This document shows, in pieces, positions 2,631-5,666 of a stretch of DNA of 5,666 nucleotides. The DNA lies in the NCBI GenBank assembly GCA_030609785.1, contig JAUWTC010000201.1, positions 1 to 5,666 of the forward strand. Direction: 5' to 3'. This DNA is from Holophagae bacterium. Lineage in GTDB: Bacteria; Acidobacteriota; Thermoanaerobaculia; Thermoanaerobaculales; Sulfomarinibacteraceae. Position 1 is the stretch's first letter. Each line of letters begins with the position of its first letter. The notes below the pieces were generated by a model that saw only the letters and a list, made by a program, of their open reading frames with translations, was not told the origin of the DNA and searched no databases. The translations under genes and the position numbers were made by a program.

Positions 2631-3014
2631 CTACGCTACGAACGTCTCGTGATACCCCTCATCGGGCTTTTCGGCGCCGTCGAACCCATCGACCGTCAAC
2701 CAGGCGTGCCCGTCCCTCGAGCCCCCGTCCGTACGGATACCGAGATGGAACTTGGGTTCCAGACCACAGCGCGACCAGAGATCAAGCAGAATGTAGGACC
2801 GTTTGAGGCAGGGCCTGAATCCGCGGGGAGGCAACCAGCGGTACCATCGATTGACCAACGCCTCGAAATCTTCGGGGCGCCGCAGACTCTGAGGCAGTGC
2901 CGGAACCCGACGAATGCGCTCAACCAGTTGATCCAAAGGCAGTCGCCGGCACAACCAGGCAACTCTCATGGCGGCCATGATCACCACGAAAGGCATCACG
3001 AGGCCTTTCGCCAT
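2631..3014 (-). CDS. Lasso-peptide B2-type transglutaminase-like protease
   Basis: 127 residues from ATG 3014 to TAG 2633-2631. The family (PF13471, Transglut_core3; C-terminal half of McjB, stand-alone B2 in many lasso systems) holds cysteine proteases that cut the leader from a modified peptide. The Cys-His-Asp set is visible: C69 in RPCLKRSYILLDLW, H103 in DGHAWL and D109 in TVDG. GLEPKFHLGIR (84-94) is the usual strand before the His motif. Residues 5-22 are strongly hydrophobic, as is common in B2 proteins, and may lie against or in the membrane. The start is set by the junction: the upstream gene's TGA and this ATG share one base (TGATG), with GAGGGG 4 bases before. An in-frame ATG at 3032 would add six residues and more overlap. 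It is last in the operon. No macrolactam synthetase is present in the window, so a true lasso product is not supported. Confidence 0.85.
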   Translation of the reverse strand: MAKGLVMPFVVIMAAMRVAWLCRRLPLDQLVERIRRVPALPQSLRRPEDFEALVNRWYRWLPPRGFRPCLKRSYILLDLWSRCGLEPKFHLGIRTDGGSRDGHAWLTVDGFDGAEKPDEGYHETFVA

Positions 3015-4042
3015 CACGCCCCTCGCCTCCACGCTTCTTCCTTGGCCTCGGCCTGGGCGCAGGCGTCTTTGGAGGGACCCATCAGATCACCATCTTCCAC
3101 CAGGGCCTGGGCGGGACAGCGCCCGCAGTAGGCGTACTTGTCGCAGGTCGAGCACGTCTCCAAATCAGCTCGGGTGATCCCCCGGAGTTTCTCAAACCAC
3201 GGCGAGTTCTCCCAGACCTCGCGGAAGGAGGTCTCGAGCACATTGCCGGCCACCACCGGCATGATGTTGCAGGCCAGAACGTCCCCGCCCGAGGTGATAT
3301 TGGCGTAGCGCACGCCGGCCGCACACAGAGGGCCTCCCTCGCGATCAGGATCTACAGCCTCAACCCCACAGACCAGGTCAGGGCTTTCAGCGAAGATCGT
3401 CGGCAGGGCCTCATCGGGCAACCGCATCTTTATCGGTTCGGGATCGCCATCCTTCTTGGACAGGATCTTGGCGAACGAACTCCCCACCGCGTCGATCTCA
3501 CGGGCGAAGTCCAAAGCCCCACGGTAGCTTTCGCGGTTGAGGGTCATCACCGGGATATTGAGTTCCAACTGGAGGCCCCGCTCCCGCACAAACTCGATAC
3601 CCCGCAGGGTCGCGTCGAACGACCCCGCCTTCTGCGTGATCGCCTCGAAGACCTCCCGGTCGTTGGCATAGAAACTGATCTCGACATAGGCCTGTACCTC
3701 AGCCAACTGGTCGGCAATCTCTTCGTCGATCAACGCCCCGTTGGTCAACACTGCCAGGGAGAAACCCAACTCCCGGGCTCGACACACGATCTCGAACCAG
3801 TCCTTGCGCAGGAGGAACTCGCCCCCGGTGAAGACCAGGTACAGGGTTCCCATATCCGCCAGCTCGTCCAGGAGTTCCATCACCCGTTCGGTGGTCAGCA
3901 AATCCGGCGCCTGGAAATCCGGAATGTAACAGTGCCGGCAGCGAAAATTGCAGTGGTGGGTCAGTTCGATGACGACCTCGAGGGGGATGCACTCCTTGGC
4001 CGCGCGCCCGACCAACCGGCTGAAGTGGGGGGTTCTATCCAT
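3014..4042 (-). CDS. Radical SAM/SPASM peptide-modifying enzyme
   Basis: 342 residues. The radical SAM cluster motif CxxxCxxC is C31, C35, C38 (HHCNFRCRHCY), followed by the FTGGE motif (71-75) that contacts the SAM methionine. The C-terminus carries a SPASM domain with the classic seven-Cys pattern: C240, a 12-residue gap, G253, four residues, C258, then C297-x2-C300-x5-C306-x2-C309 and C328. This predicts two auxiliary iron-sulfur clusters besides the SAM cluster. SPASM enzymes act on peptides or proteins, forming thioether or carbon-carbon links or epimerising residues; which one applies here cannot be read from sequence. The N-terminus is short, with no RRE domain of its own, fitting the PqqD-like gene in the same operon as its partner. 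ATG 4042 shares one base with the kinase stop (TGATG), with GGAAGG 6 bases upstream. An in-frame ATG at 4120 lies inside the kinase gene and is less likely. Confidence 0.93.
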   Translation of the reverse strand: MDRTPHFSRLVGRAAKECIPLEVVIELTHHCNFRCRHCYIPDFQAPDLLTTERVMELLDELADMGTLYLVFTGGEFLLRKDWFEIVCRARELGFSLAVLTNGALIDEEIADQLAEVQAYVEISFYANDREVFEAITQKAGSFDATLRGIEFVRERGLQLELNIPVMTLNRESYRGALDFAREIDAVGSSFAKILSKKDGDPEPIKMRLPDEALPTIFAESPDLVCGVEAVDPDREGGPLCAAGVRYANITSGGDVLACNIMPVVAGNVLETSFREVWENSPWFEKLRGITRADLETCSTCDKYAYCGRCPAQALVEDGDLMGPSKDACAQAEAKEEAWRRGA

Positions 4043-4827
4043 CAGAGGCCTTCCGTCATCGTGGCCCACACTGAAGGATCGGGCCAGAAGGCCAGGCGAA
4101 AGACCGGGGTGTCCCGACAAATATCCGTCAACGCTTTGAACGACTCACGCATCAGGGCGGGATGCTCGACCGGCCAATAGATATGCCGCCTCAGTTCCTG
4201 GATGGCCTCGAACTCAGCCAGCGGTATCCGCCGATGTTCAGCGCCGTGCTCGATGATGAAAACCGCCGCGAGGGGAACCACCCCGGGCCGAGCCTGCCAG
4301 AACGGCAGCGACCGCACCTCGACCTCCGTGCCGGCAGCCAGCCGAACCATTTCATCGCACAGCGCCGCTTCGGGGAAAAGCGCCGCCATGGTGCTCTTAC
4401 CGGAACCACTGATGCCGCAGCACAGAAAACCCCGCTTTCCGTCACTGAGCAGGGCGCCATGCACCATCAAGTCCGGGGCGATGACCGAGGGCAAGAGTGT
4501 TCGCAGGACACCGTCGAGCACGTCGGTCCCTTGCCTCGCAGCAACCTGGGCGCTTCGCCCGCCGGGGTGAACGATCGATAGGCACCCGTGCTGCGCCGTC
4601 ATCGTGGCTTCGTCACCCGTGTGGGTGATCGTGATCTCAGGCCTTGCCTCGTCACACACGAATGAGCCGTATCGATCACGGGCCTCGCCTAGCCAGGATC
4701 CGCTGCCACTCTTGATCTCGACAATCGTACCGGCCAGGTCAATCGACAACCGGCCGTCTGGAGCGACGGCCGGTGGGAGAAATTCGGATTGAGCCCGGTT
4801 TTCGCTGATCTCGAACGGCAGCTTCAC
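4042..4827 (-). CDS. HPr-kinase-like P-loop kinase of a peptide-modification operon
   Basis: 261 residues with a GTG start at 4827. The C-terminal half resembles the HPr kinase/phosphorylase catalytic domain (PF07475): HGALL at 123-127, a Walker A loop GISGSGKST at 138-146 (K144) and LCDEMVRL around 156-163, where D158-E159 replace the usual acidic pair. The N-terminal 110 residues are strand-rich and not recognised. HprK-like kinases occur in some lasso-peptide clusters, where they phosphorylate a serine at the precursor C-terminus, and with PqqD-like partners in other clusters of unclear product. A role in carbon-catabolite HPr phosphorylation is unlikely, since nothing in the neighbourhood suggests it. 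The start is inferred from a GTGA overlap with the PqqD-like stop (4 bases). The ATG at 4914 would overlap that gene by 91 bases. A G-run (4836-4830) is the only purine stretch before the GTG, so initiation may depend on coupling. Confidence 0.82.
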   Translation of the reverse strand: MKLPFEISENRAQSEFLPPAVAPDGRLSIDLAGTIVEIKSGSGSWLGEARDRYGSFVCDEARPEITITHTGDEATMTAQHGCLSIVHPGGRSAQVAARQGTDVLDGVLRTLLPSVIAPDLMVHGALLSDGKRGFLCCGISGSGKSTMAALFPEAALCDEMVRLAAGTEVEVRSLPFWQARPGVVPLAAVFIIEHGAEHRRIPLAEFEAIQELRRHIYWPVEHPALMRESFKALTDICRDTPVFRLAFWPDPSVWATMTEGL

Positions 4828-5225
4828 GACCCCCCCGGGTGCTGGTTGCACTGGTGACTTTGGCCCGGCACCAGATGGCACTGGCCTGCAAACTGCTGAA
4901 GCTCTTCCCGCCACTCAATTCGGGGAAAGTCGACGACGGTATCGCTCTTGGAGGCTTCGGACAATTCGCCGGCAACATCAACCAGGCCCTCTTCAGCCAG
5001 ATCGGCAACAAAAAGATGGACGGCGTCGATGACGTCGGCGCCCTCCGGCGCGCCTTCGGAGGCGATCGCCTCGAGGGTCTTCATATCCTGAGGTTCGGAC
5101 AGGGCTTCCCAGATCCGTCCGGCGGCGCCGTCCAGACCGAAAATTCTGTGCCGGGCGAGGTGAATTACGACCATCTCGTCACCGACCTTGCGCCACGCTG
5201 CCCCTTGAATTCTCTTAATCTCCAT
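4824..5225 (-). CDS. PqqD-family (RRE) peptide-binding protein with Cys-containing C-terminal tail
   Basis: 133 residues from ATG 5225 to TGA 4826-4824. Residues 1-85 match the PqqD fold (PF05402), a winged-helix RiPP recognition element that presents a precursor to a radical SAM enzyme: an N-terminal strand pair (WRKVGDEMVVIHLARHRIFGLD), the helix with GRIWEAL (36-42), a second helix, and VIDAVHLFVADLAEEGLVDV (65-84). Stand-alone PqqD proteins usually end near here. This one continues for about 48 residues through an acidic linker (85-99) into FPRIEWREELQQFAGQ (100-115) and the tail CHLVPGQSHQCNQHPGGS (116-133), with Cys at 116 and 126 and a terminal Ser. The segment looks like a leader plus core peptide fused to its recognition domain; this is inference. 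It is first in the operon and starts with GGAG 6 bases upstream. The tail could instead be a metal-binding or docking extension. Confidence 0.85.
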   Translation of the reverse strand: MEIKRIQGAAWRKVGDEMVVIHLARHRIFGLDGAAGRIWEALSEPQDMKTLEAIASEGAPEGADVIDAVHLFVADLAEEGLVDVAGELSEASKSDTVVDFPRIEWREELQQFAGQCHLVPGQSHQCNQHPGGS

Positions 5226-5288: not shown

Positions 5289-5666
5289 CTACTGCCCGAT
5301 GCCGAAACTCATGGGGCGGAAGCACCGTAGCGCCACCCCGTCGACCATGCCGTTGACCCGCCACATGCCGTAGAGCGAGCTGGAGACGATCGAAGTACCC
5401 CCAACTGGGAAGCGAACCTCGATCGAAGGCGTCAGCTCTCCTTCGATACGACGTACCTCGGGCGCCACCACCGTCACCGGATAGGGATAGCCCGGAAGCC
5501 GCCGGGTCTGCGTCCCCCCGCGGCCGATCTCCGGAGTCACGGGAACGTCGATCTGACGGTAGAGATGCCCAGCCGGCGTGAAGAACTTCAAGGAGATCAC
5601 ATGCTCCTCCTTGAACGCATCCGGGAACACCACGTGGACCTTGAGGTCGGTGGTCTTGACCGCCGA
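5289..5666 (-). CDS. Unidentified protein, C-terminal 125 residues only
   Basis: An open frame enters from the right edge and ends at TAG 5291-5289; its start is outside the window. A GTG at 5633 could be read as a start, but the frame stays open to 5666 with similar protein-like composition (VKTTDLKVHV), so a longer gene is more likely. The fragment looks rich in beta strand, alternating hydrophobic and polar residues, with VFPDAFKEEHVISLKFFTPAGHLYRQIDVPV-like strands in the first 45 residues, then a proline/glycine linker, PVGGTSIVSSSLYGMW (87-102) and one Cys (115). No enzymatic motif is visible; an extracellular or periplasmic beta-sandwich domain is possible. It lies 63 bases upstream of the PqqD-like gene on the same strand, so co-transcription is possible. 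Confidence 0.6.
   Translation of the reverse strand, partial: SAVKTTDLKVHVVFPDAFKEEHVISLKFFTPAGHLYRQIDVPVTPEIGRGGTQTRRLPGYPYPVTVVAPEVRRIEGELTPSIEVRFPVGGTSIVSSSLYGMWRVNGMVDGVALRCFRPMSFGIGQ

Follow-up and report, generated by a model that had tools for sequence, protein, structure and literature searches.

Introduction

RiPP recognition elements (RREs), which bind the precursors of ribosomally synthesized and post-translationally modified peptides (RiPPs), provide a class-independent handle for genome mining, which then seeks a separate small precursor gene. In this study, we analyzed a 5,666-bp stretch of a Holophagae bacterium (assembly GCA_030609785.1, contig JAUWTC010000201.1), hereafter the window, whose minus strand carries, in order, the 3′ part of a small protein gene (orf5) and genes for a PqqD protein, a kinase-like protein, a radical S-adenosylmethionine (SAM)/SPASM enzyme and a B2 protease. 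The C-terminal tail of the PqqD protein is likely a RiPP precursor, comprising leader and core, that shares one polypeptide with its recognition domain; the SPASM enzyme, the kinase and the B2 protease are predicted to modify and release this tail. The window is an entire contig (C284) of an assembly of 457 contigs that is 80% complete.

The nearest described system is that of the linear polyphosphorylated peptides (LPP), cyclase-free RiPPs with a lasso-type RRE, an HprK-like kinase, a leader peptidase and a leader resembling [Y/W]xxPx[LVIFA] (PMC13381572). An RRE and an HprK-like kinase without a cyclase, the combination that characterizes LPP loci, are also present in the window cassette, the kinase being assigned by fold and motif. 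LPP loci differ in using another protease and a separate precursor; we found no RRE–precursor fusion described in that paper, and its main text lacks the terms radical SAM, rSAM, SPASM and Acidobacteri (PMC13381572). LppS (signal-peptidase-like), a nucleoside triphosphate (NTP) transferase and an MsbA-like transporter were not found among the window's own scanned genes, the neighbors at other loci not having been scanned for them.

Phosphorylated lasso peptides are produced by pathways with an asparagine-synthetase-like cyclase and a separate precursor, to our knowledge without a SPASM enzyme. Their clusters (BsfA and others) share with the window an RRE (B1 in their case), a B2 protease and a kinase, which in those clusters acts on the precursor and has the motif H-G-G-G-K-S-D-D; as described there, the earlier lasso kinases act on a C-terminal serine and BsfK on Ser3 (PMC10368454). 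Sactipeptides and other SPASM-modified RiPPs (SkfB, AlbA, StsB, PqqE) resemble the cassette in having a sequence-related SPASM enzyme, a cysteine-bearing core and an RRE. In sactipeptide-type systems the RRE lies within the enzyme or in a separate protein, not in the precursor, and we know of none with an HprK-like kinase. The SynChlorMet (Scm) and HPr-rel-A cassettes combine, by the names of their NCBIfam models, an HprK-related protein, a PqqD relative and a SPASM enzyme, but the window proteins score far below these models (ScmC, 11.6 bits against a cut-off of 125; ScmE, 95 against 400; ScmF, 78 against 400; HprK_rel_A, 14 against 200). The literature searched (open-licence papers only) yielded no paper on either cassette.

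RREs joined to another domain are recorded in the RRE-Finder catalogue (PMC7470986) and its successor (PMC12710340); in the parts of these sources available, the partners are enzymes or other protein domains rather than precursors. The latter also describes W/Y/LxxP/L/I recognition motifs across lasso, pyrroloquinoline quinone (PQQ) and sactipeptide RREs (PMC12710340). Within Acidobacteriota, the RiPP modifications presented as the first characterized belong to lanthipeptide-type clusters with GMC oxidoreductases, a system different from this cassette (PMC13083261). Neither an RRE–precursor fusion nor this cassette was described in the same literature, and the arrangement by which, in some Acidobacteriota, a PqqD tail would unite precursor and recognizer was not found described.

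Results

A precursor-like tail on the PqqD protein

When the window PqqD protein was aligned with six relatives, a second conserved block, P-x-[IVL]-x-W-x-E...A...C...C...P, appeared beyond a variable linker. This tail of 33 residues, which is absent from an earlier note on the window, divides into a predicted leader and a predicted core. The parts of the fusion protein are as follows.

4974..5225, minus strand: PqqD-type RRE domain, residues 1-84 of the 133-residue fusion protein (gene 4824-5225)
4926..4973, minus strand: variable linker, residues 85-100 of the fusion protein
4884..4925, minus strand: predicted leader PRIEWREELQQFAG, residues 101-114, with the RRE-docking strand and a predicted cleavage motif
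4827..4883, minus strand: predicted core QCHLVPGQSHQCNQHPGGS, residues 115-133, with C-x9-C and a terminal Ser

The protein matches PqqD (PF05402, E 8e-7), and its closest fold is the lasso RRE TbiB1; the lasso_PqqD_Bac model gave 23.4 bits against a cut-off of 80. A search of 5.8 billion proteins with the PqqD alignment returned 98 matches, 94 of which carry the tail in its strict pattern; the other four are P0090, where a similar tail is still there, P0095, P0096 and P0098. The leader, P-x-I-x-W-x-E...F-A-G, is near-invariant, its W being retained in 92 of the 94 tails, and in the core the spacing C-x9-C is found in 93 tails and a final Ser in 87. Within one length class (73 of the 94 tails, 68 of them unique), mean entropy was 0.68 bits for the leader and 1.89 bits for the core excluding the two cysteines; this class was selected by C-x9-C-x7, so that its cysteines are invariant by construction, which does not apply to the count of 93 of 94. 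For the 52 members of the class in alignment A4, mean column entropy was 1.47 bits in the domain, 2.57 in the linker, 0.65 in the leader and 1.51 in the core. A conserved leader followed by a more variable core is a RiPP-like pattern. Structure prediction placed a strand at residues 103-108, with a mean pLDDT of 91 for residues 101-110 and 62 for linker residues 91-100.

Three fused proteins of another family (G413, G414 and G417; loci L110-L112, with no B2 gene alongside, L111 being cut) retain the leader motif ahead of a different, single-cysteine core, NP[QE]C, as read by eye. Motif scans of the fused-form loci for a separate peptide that carries the leader motif turned up nothing but the fused tails. 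The precursor is probably the C-terminal tail of the PqqD gene rather than a missing separate gene.

A homologous peptide as a separate gene

In a related clade (family f17), a small open reading frame (ORF) with the pattern W-x-x-P-[AS]-[IV]-E-W-E-E-x-Y-x-P...S-C...N-C lies ahead of the kinase and SPASM matches at seven loci (G193, G231, G046, G003, G350, G303 and G335); the SPASM match is partial in G335, and the small ORF of G303 runs off its contig. At all six loci where orf5 is visible, the small ORF lies between orf5 and the kinase gene, the slot that the fusion gene occupies in the window clade. These loci have a separate, tail-less PqqD gene in six of seven cases (L115 is cut), orf5 in six, a propeller in five and a B2 gene in none. 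The protein database holds 33 such separate precursors, 42-59 residues long, and they fit the W/Y/LxxP/L/I motif as described (PMC12710340), with W or Y three residues before the Pro in 31 of 31 scorable peptides.

A profile of seven separate precursors matched that of 15 fused tails over 22 columns (E 9.4e-6, score 26.7); all 200 column shuffles scored lower, with a maximum of 19.3, and the reversed profile scored 10.0. By this comparison, the separate f17 peptide is homologous to the fused tail. Two of these small peptides, when scanned against NCBIfam, had no match up to E 10.

These observations bear on another explanation, namely that the tail serves the PqqD protein itself, for instance as a lid, as an autoinhibitory segment or by ligating a metal or an iron-sulfur cluster, the real substrate being encoded at another place in the genome. 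A tail kept by pattern in 94 of 98 homologs would suit such a role, the near-invariant cysteine pair and Pro could serve as ligands, and no product is known. However, a separate gene for a homologous peptide in the same slot, a conserved leader ahead of variable and even alternative cores, and the lack of any other leader-motif peptide in the scanned fused-form loci all argue against it, and we consider this explanation unlikely.

Recurrence of the cassette without a cyclase

Searches of 396 Acidobacteriota genomes and 148 genomes of the window's class identified 21 distinct fused-form genomes, four of which were placed by way of their identical named contigs L006, L007, L009 and L012. Among the 396, the PqqD match extends to the end of the tail in seven genomes; the same seven hold the top-tier SPASM matches (E <= 2.5e-144, the next best being 7e-99), and in every one the PqqD, kinase and SPASM genes lie side by side. 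The association of PqqD tail, SPASM enzyme and kinase exceeds chance. In the window's class, 19 of the 148 genomes gave a match at E <= 1e-15. The seven named relatives are all Acidobacteriota (Holophagae, Thermoanaerobaculales, Thermoanaerobaculia or Acidobacteriota bacterium). The tail profile misses the divergent tails of G413, G414 and G417, so that other divergent fused forms among the 396 or 148 genomes may go uncounted.

In the fused-form genomes, the kinase gene adjoins the fusion gene in 21 of 21 and the SPASM gene in 20 (the G417 contig stops in the kinase gene), whereas B2 adjoins in 14. The core of the system is accordingly the RRE–precursor, the kinase and the SPASM enzyme, B2 being less constant than these three. 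The earlier note had proposed a RiPP-type cassette that lacks a cyclase and brings together radical SAM, HprK-like kinase and B2, and whose four genes would stay together across genomes. The cassette does recur and its kinase and SPASM genes hold together, but the part of the proposal that concerns B2 does not extend to all fused-form loci or to any of the seven separate-precursor loci.

That note had also held that a lasso cyclase and a separate precursor just outside the window would count against it. In none of the 21 genomes does a PF00733 (Asn_synthase) gene lie closer than 30 kb to the fusion gene on its contig, nine of these contigs, including that of the window, being shorter than 25 kb. 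All 21 genomes do contain PF00733 genes, the nearest on the same contig lying about 32 and 33 kb away (G372 and G198). Assignment to a lasso cluster, which calls for a PF00733 cyclase, was rejected on the contigs available. An ordinary lasso-peptide locus, or its remnant, with the cyclase elsewhere would account for the joint presence of RRE, B2 and HprK-like kinase, as described for paeninodin-type lasso clusters (PMC13381572), and the separate precursors have a WxxPxI leader similar to the lasso motif. Nevertheless, a SPASM gene accompanies 20 of the 21 fusion genes, and the window core contains no Asp or Glu with which a macrolactam ring could be closed; we regard this disfavored explanation as very improbable.

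The SPASM enzyme and its relatives

The remaining features of the window are as follows.

4042..4827, minus strand: HprK/PEPCK-fold kinase-like protein, with the P-loop at about 4390-4416
3014..4042, minus strand: radical SAM/SPASM enzyme, with CxxxCxxC at about 3929-3952 and SPASM cysteines at about 3116-3325; an alternative GTG start lies at 4069
2631..3014, minus strand: B2-type (Transglut_core3) cysteine protease, with the Cys codon at 2808-2810 and the His codon at 2706-2708
5289..5666, minus strand: 3′ part of orf5, a small protein gene cut by the contig end, whose copies in relatives have a signal-peptide-like start

The PqqD stop and the kinase start share four bases (GTGA), and the kinase/SPASM and SPASM/B2 junctions, TGATG, share one base each, provided that translation begins at ATG 4042 (SPASM) and ATG 3014 (B2). 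Four contiguous same-strand genes with these coordinates, family names and overlaps of 4, 1 and 1 bases had been noted earlier; the ORFs are present on the minus strand, and profiles and fold support the families.

The SPASM enzyme matches Radical_SAM (PF04055, E 1.4e-27) and SPASM (PF13186, E 7e-9), and CxxxCxxC and six auxiliary cysteines are retained in eight of eight sequences. Among solved sequences, SkfB (E 8e-21) and PqqE (E 1.4e-20) are the nearest. Sactipeptide-type models scored low (AlbA, 67 bits against a cut-off of 850; StsB, 114 against 625), and so did the PqqE model (110 against 381) and that of the mycofactocin radical SAM enzyme (109 against 265), so that the protein is not assigned as an equivalog of the PQQ or mycofactocin enzymes. 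In a midpoint-rooted SPASM tree, 20 fused-form rows fall on one side of a branch (100/99 versus the other labelled rows), and the fork that includes L008, whose PqqD is not on its contig, has 96/96. The other group (100/99) consists of seven f17 rows, among them G223 (matched for the SPASM gene only, on a 4.2-kb contig) but not G335. The SPASM enzymes of the fused form are one group.

We also weighed whether the peptide is only a scaffold from which the cassette builds a small redox cofactor, comparable to PQQ or mycofactocin, to supply a neighboring PQQ-type propeller. The kinship with PqqE and the near-invariant W and E of the leader are in line with this idea, as is the presence, in 17 of the 21 fused-form genomes, of a protein near the cassette that has or matches PQQ_2 propeller repeats. 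However, the PqqE and mycofactocin models lie far under their cut-offs, and conservation in the core is strongest at Cys, Pro and Ser rather than at Glu and Tyr. Moreover, PQQ_2 repeats occur also in propellers free of quinone, and we know of no kinase in PQQ pathways. Such a cofactor route is therefore quite unlikely.

The kinase-like protein

By sequence, the kinase matched HprK_rel_B weakly (E 0.005, far under the cut-off), and a PDB sequence search with its profile gave weak P-loop matches only; the kinase fold is for that reason a predicted one. Its AlphaFold model (pLDDT 91) was closest to phosphoenolpyruvate (PEP) carboxykinases (PEPCK) in the PDB, followed by HPr kinase/phosphatases, and one PDB comparison contained no HPr kinase among the 50 matches listed. 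Across 23 sequences, H123, G138, G141, G143, K144, S145, D158 and E159 are invariant. From H123 to S145, the spacing equals that of the BsfK motif H-G-G-G-K-S as reported (PMC10368454), whereas its D-D pair is replaced by D158-E159, three residues nearer the Ser. Pfam PF27840.1 is precomputed on several kinase homologs (best 7,999 candidates scored) and was not returned by our local Pfam scan; a newer family name for this kinase may exist. The assignment as a kinase thus draws on fold and motif together.

The B2 protease and a candidate cleavage site

The B2 protein matches Transglut_core3 (PF13471, E 1e-11) and passes lasso_biosyn_B2 (NF033537, 36.5 bits against a cut-off of 33), and its Cys and HAW are invariant in 17 rows, 16 of them distinct. 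As read from the alignments, all 14 fused-form genomes with an adjoining B2 gene have [FV]-[AG]-[AG] one or two residues ahead of the first core Cys; among the seven without, G412 alone comes close, with A-A-G. This correlation, and it is a correlation only, is compatible with B2 cutting there. A B2 gene of G412 lies 9.6 kb from the cassette.

Neighborhood of the cassette

orf5, which has no Pfam match above cut-off, is present in 18 of the 21 fused-form genomes, and a propeller match lies near the cassette in 17 (the window is cut before the propeller). orf5 is part of the conserved neighborhood, usually with a large propeller-bearing protein. Large proteins precede orf5 in most mapped loci, fused or not (L006 951-4787, L073 3006-7298, L074 10303-16716, L080 7258-9906), and PQQ_2/BamB-like propeller repeats were matched in the copies of L006, L010 (the L073 contig) and L011 (the L074 contig). 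In L077 and L078, the propeller and orf5 lie on the opposite strand, about 5 kb away. Two loci hold second copies of the propeller match, and L114 of the orf5 match as well (L103 13885-14859; L114 2562-3713 and 4142-4441).

Past B2, the window contains a methyltransferase-like gene (plus strand) and a gene for an FHA-GAF-SpoIIE protein. Between the B2 and methyltransferase genes lies a 27-nt inverted repeat (2460-2486 and 2536-2562, 93% complementary, 49 nt apart), which may be a terminator or a repeat element. On another contig of the same genome, C384 (L118 4711-6973, minus strand), a second trio has the order kinase-PqqD-radical SAM, with an HprK-like kinase and a short, tail-less PqqD; no precursor was identified in this trio. 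In more distant Acidobacteriota, the cassettes L082 and L083 unite genes for a kinase-like protein, a PqqD protein and a radical SAM enzyme, followed in L083 by a 1056-residue protein, and the motif scan recognized no precursor at either locus.

Discussion

The favored reading, in which the PqqD tail is a fused precursor in a RiPP pathway that lacks a cyclase, suggests the following course of maturation. The leader strand P-x-I-x-W-x-E would dock in cis on its own RRE domain, and the SPASM enzyme, recruited via the RRE, would crosslink the core, most likely through a thioether from one or both cysteines. The kinase would then add a phosphate to a Ser of the core, most likely the C-terminal Ser in the case of the window, as reported for several lasso-precursor kinases. 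Finally, B2 would cut after F-A-G, giving a peptide of about 19 residues and a spent RRE–leader remnant, so that each RRE would be used once. Where B2 is missing from a clade, we assume a different protease or no cleavage at all. The secreted-looking neighbors, the propeller-bearing protein and the small protein, hint at an extracytoplasmic partner.

Several points weigh against this reading. The thioether, the phosphate and the cleavage are inferred, and none of them was observed here. By fold comparison, the kinase-like protein is closer to PEPCK than to HPr kinase. The kinase site is also unsure, since the terminal Ser is missing in 7 of the 94 fused tails and is present in just 2 of the 33 separate precursors. 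For B2, the third residue of the lasso-type catalytic triad varies, the gene does not adjoin the cassette in 7 of the 21 fused-form genomes (G015, G440, G464, G413, G414, G417, where the contig is cut, and G412), and it is absent at all seven separate-precursor loci, one of which has just 0.7 kb of downstream sequence. The aromatic anchor three residues before the Pro, always W or Y in the scorable separate precursors, is not kept in the fused form; in the 94 fused tails this position holds F in seven and W or Y in none. Such a difference would be expected if tethering took the place of affinity; alternatively, it can be taken as a point against canonical docking.

A broader proposal is that the cassette represents a RiPP class that combines RRE and precursor in one polypeptide, a single-use RRE, SPASM crosslinking, phosphorylation by an HprK/PEPCK-fold kinase, B2 release and no cyclase, and that serves a co-encoded pair of secreted propeller and small protein. 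We put this forward tentatively, as a possibility that the present evidence leaves on the doubtful side.

If the tail is indeed a precursor, it is hidden within a "PqqD family protein" annotation, and such clusters could be scored as precursor-less. The natural pair of fused and separate forms would offer a direct test of the purpose of leader–RRE affinity: if cis docking is effective, the aromatic anchor retained by separate precursors should be dispensable in the fused tails. The cassette would also combine radical crosslinking and phosphorylation on one peptide, and would mark as a source of such chemistry those Acidobacteriota that are known chiefly through metagenomes.

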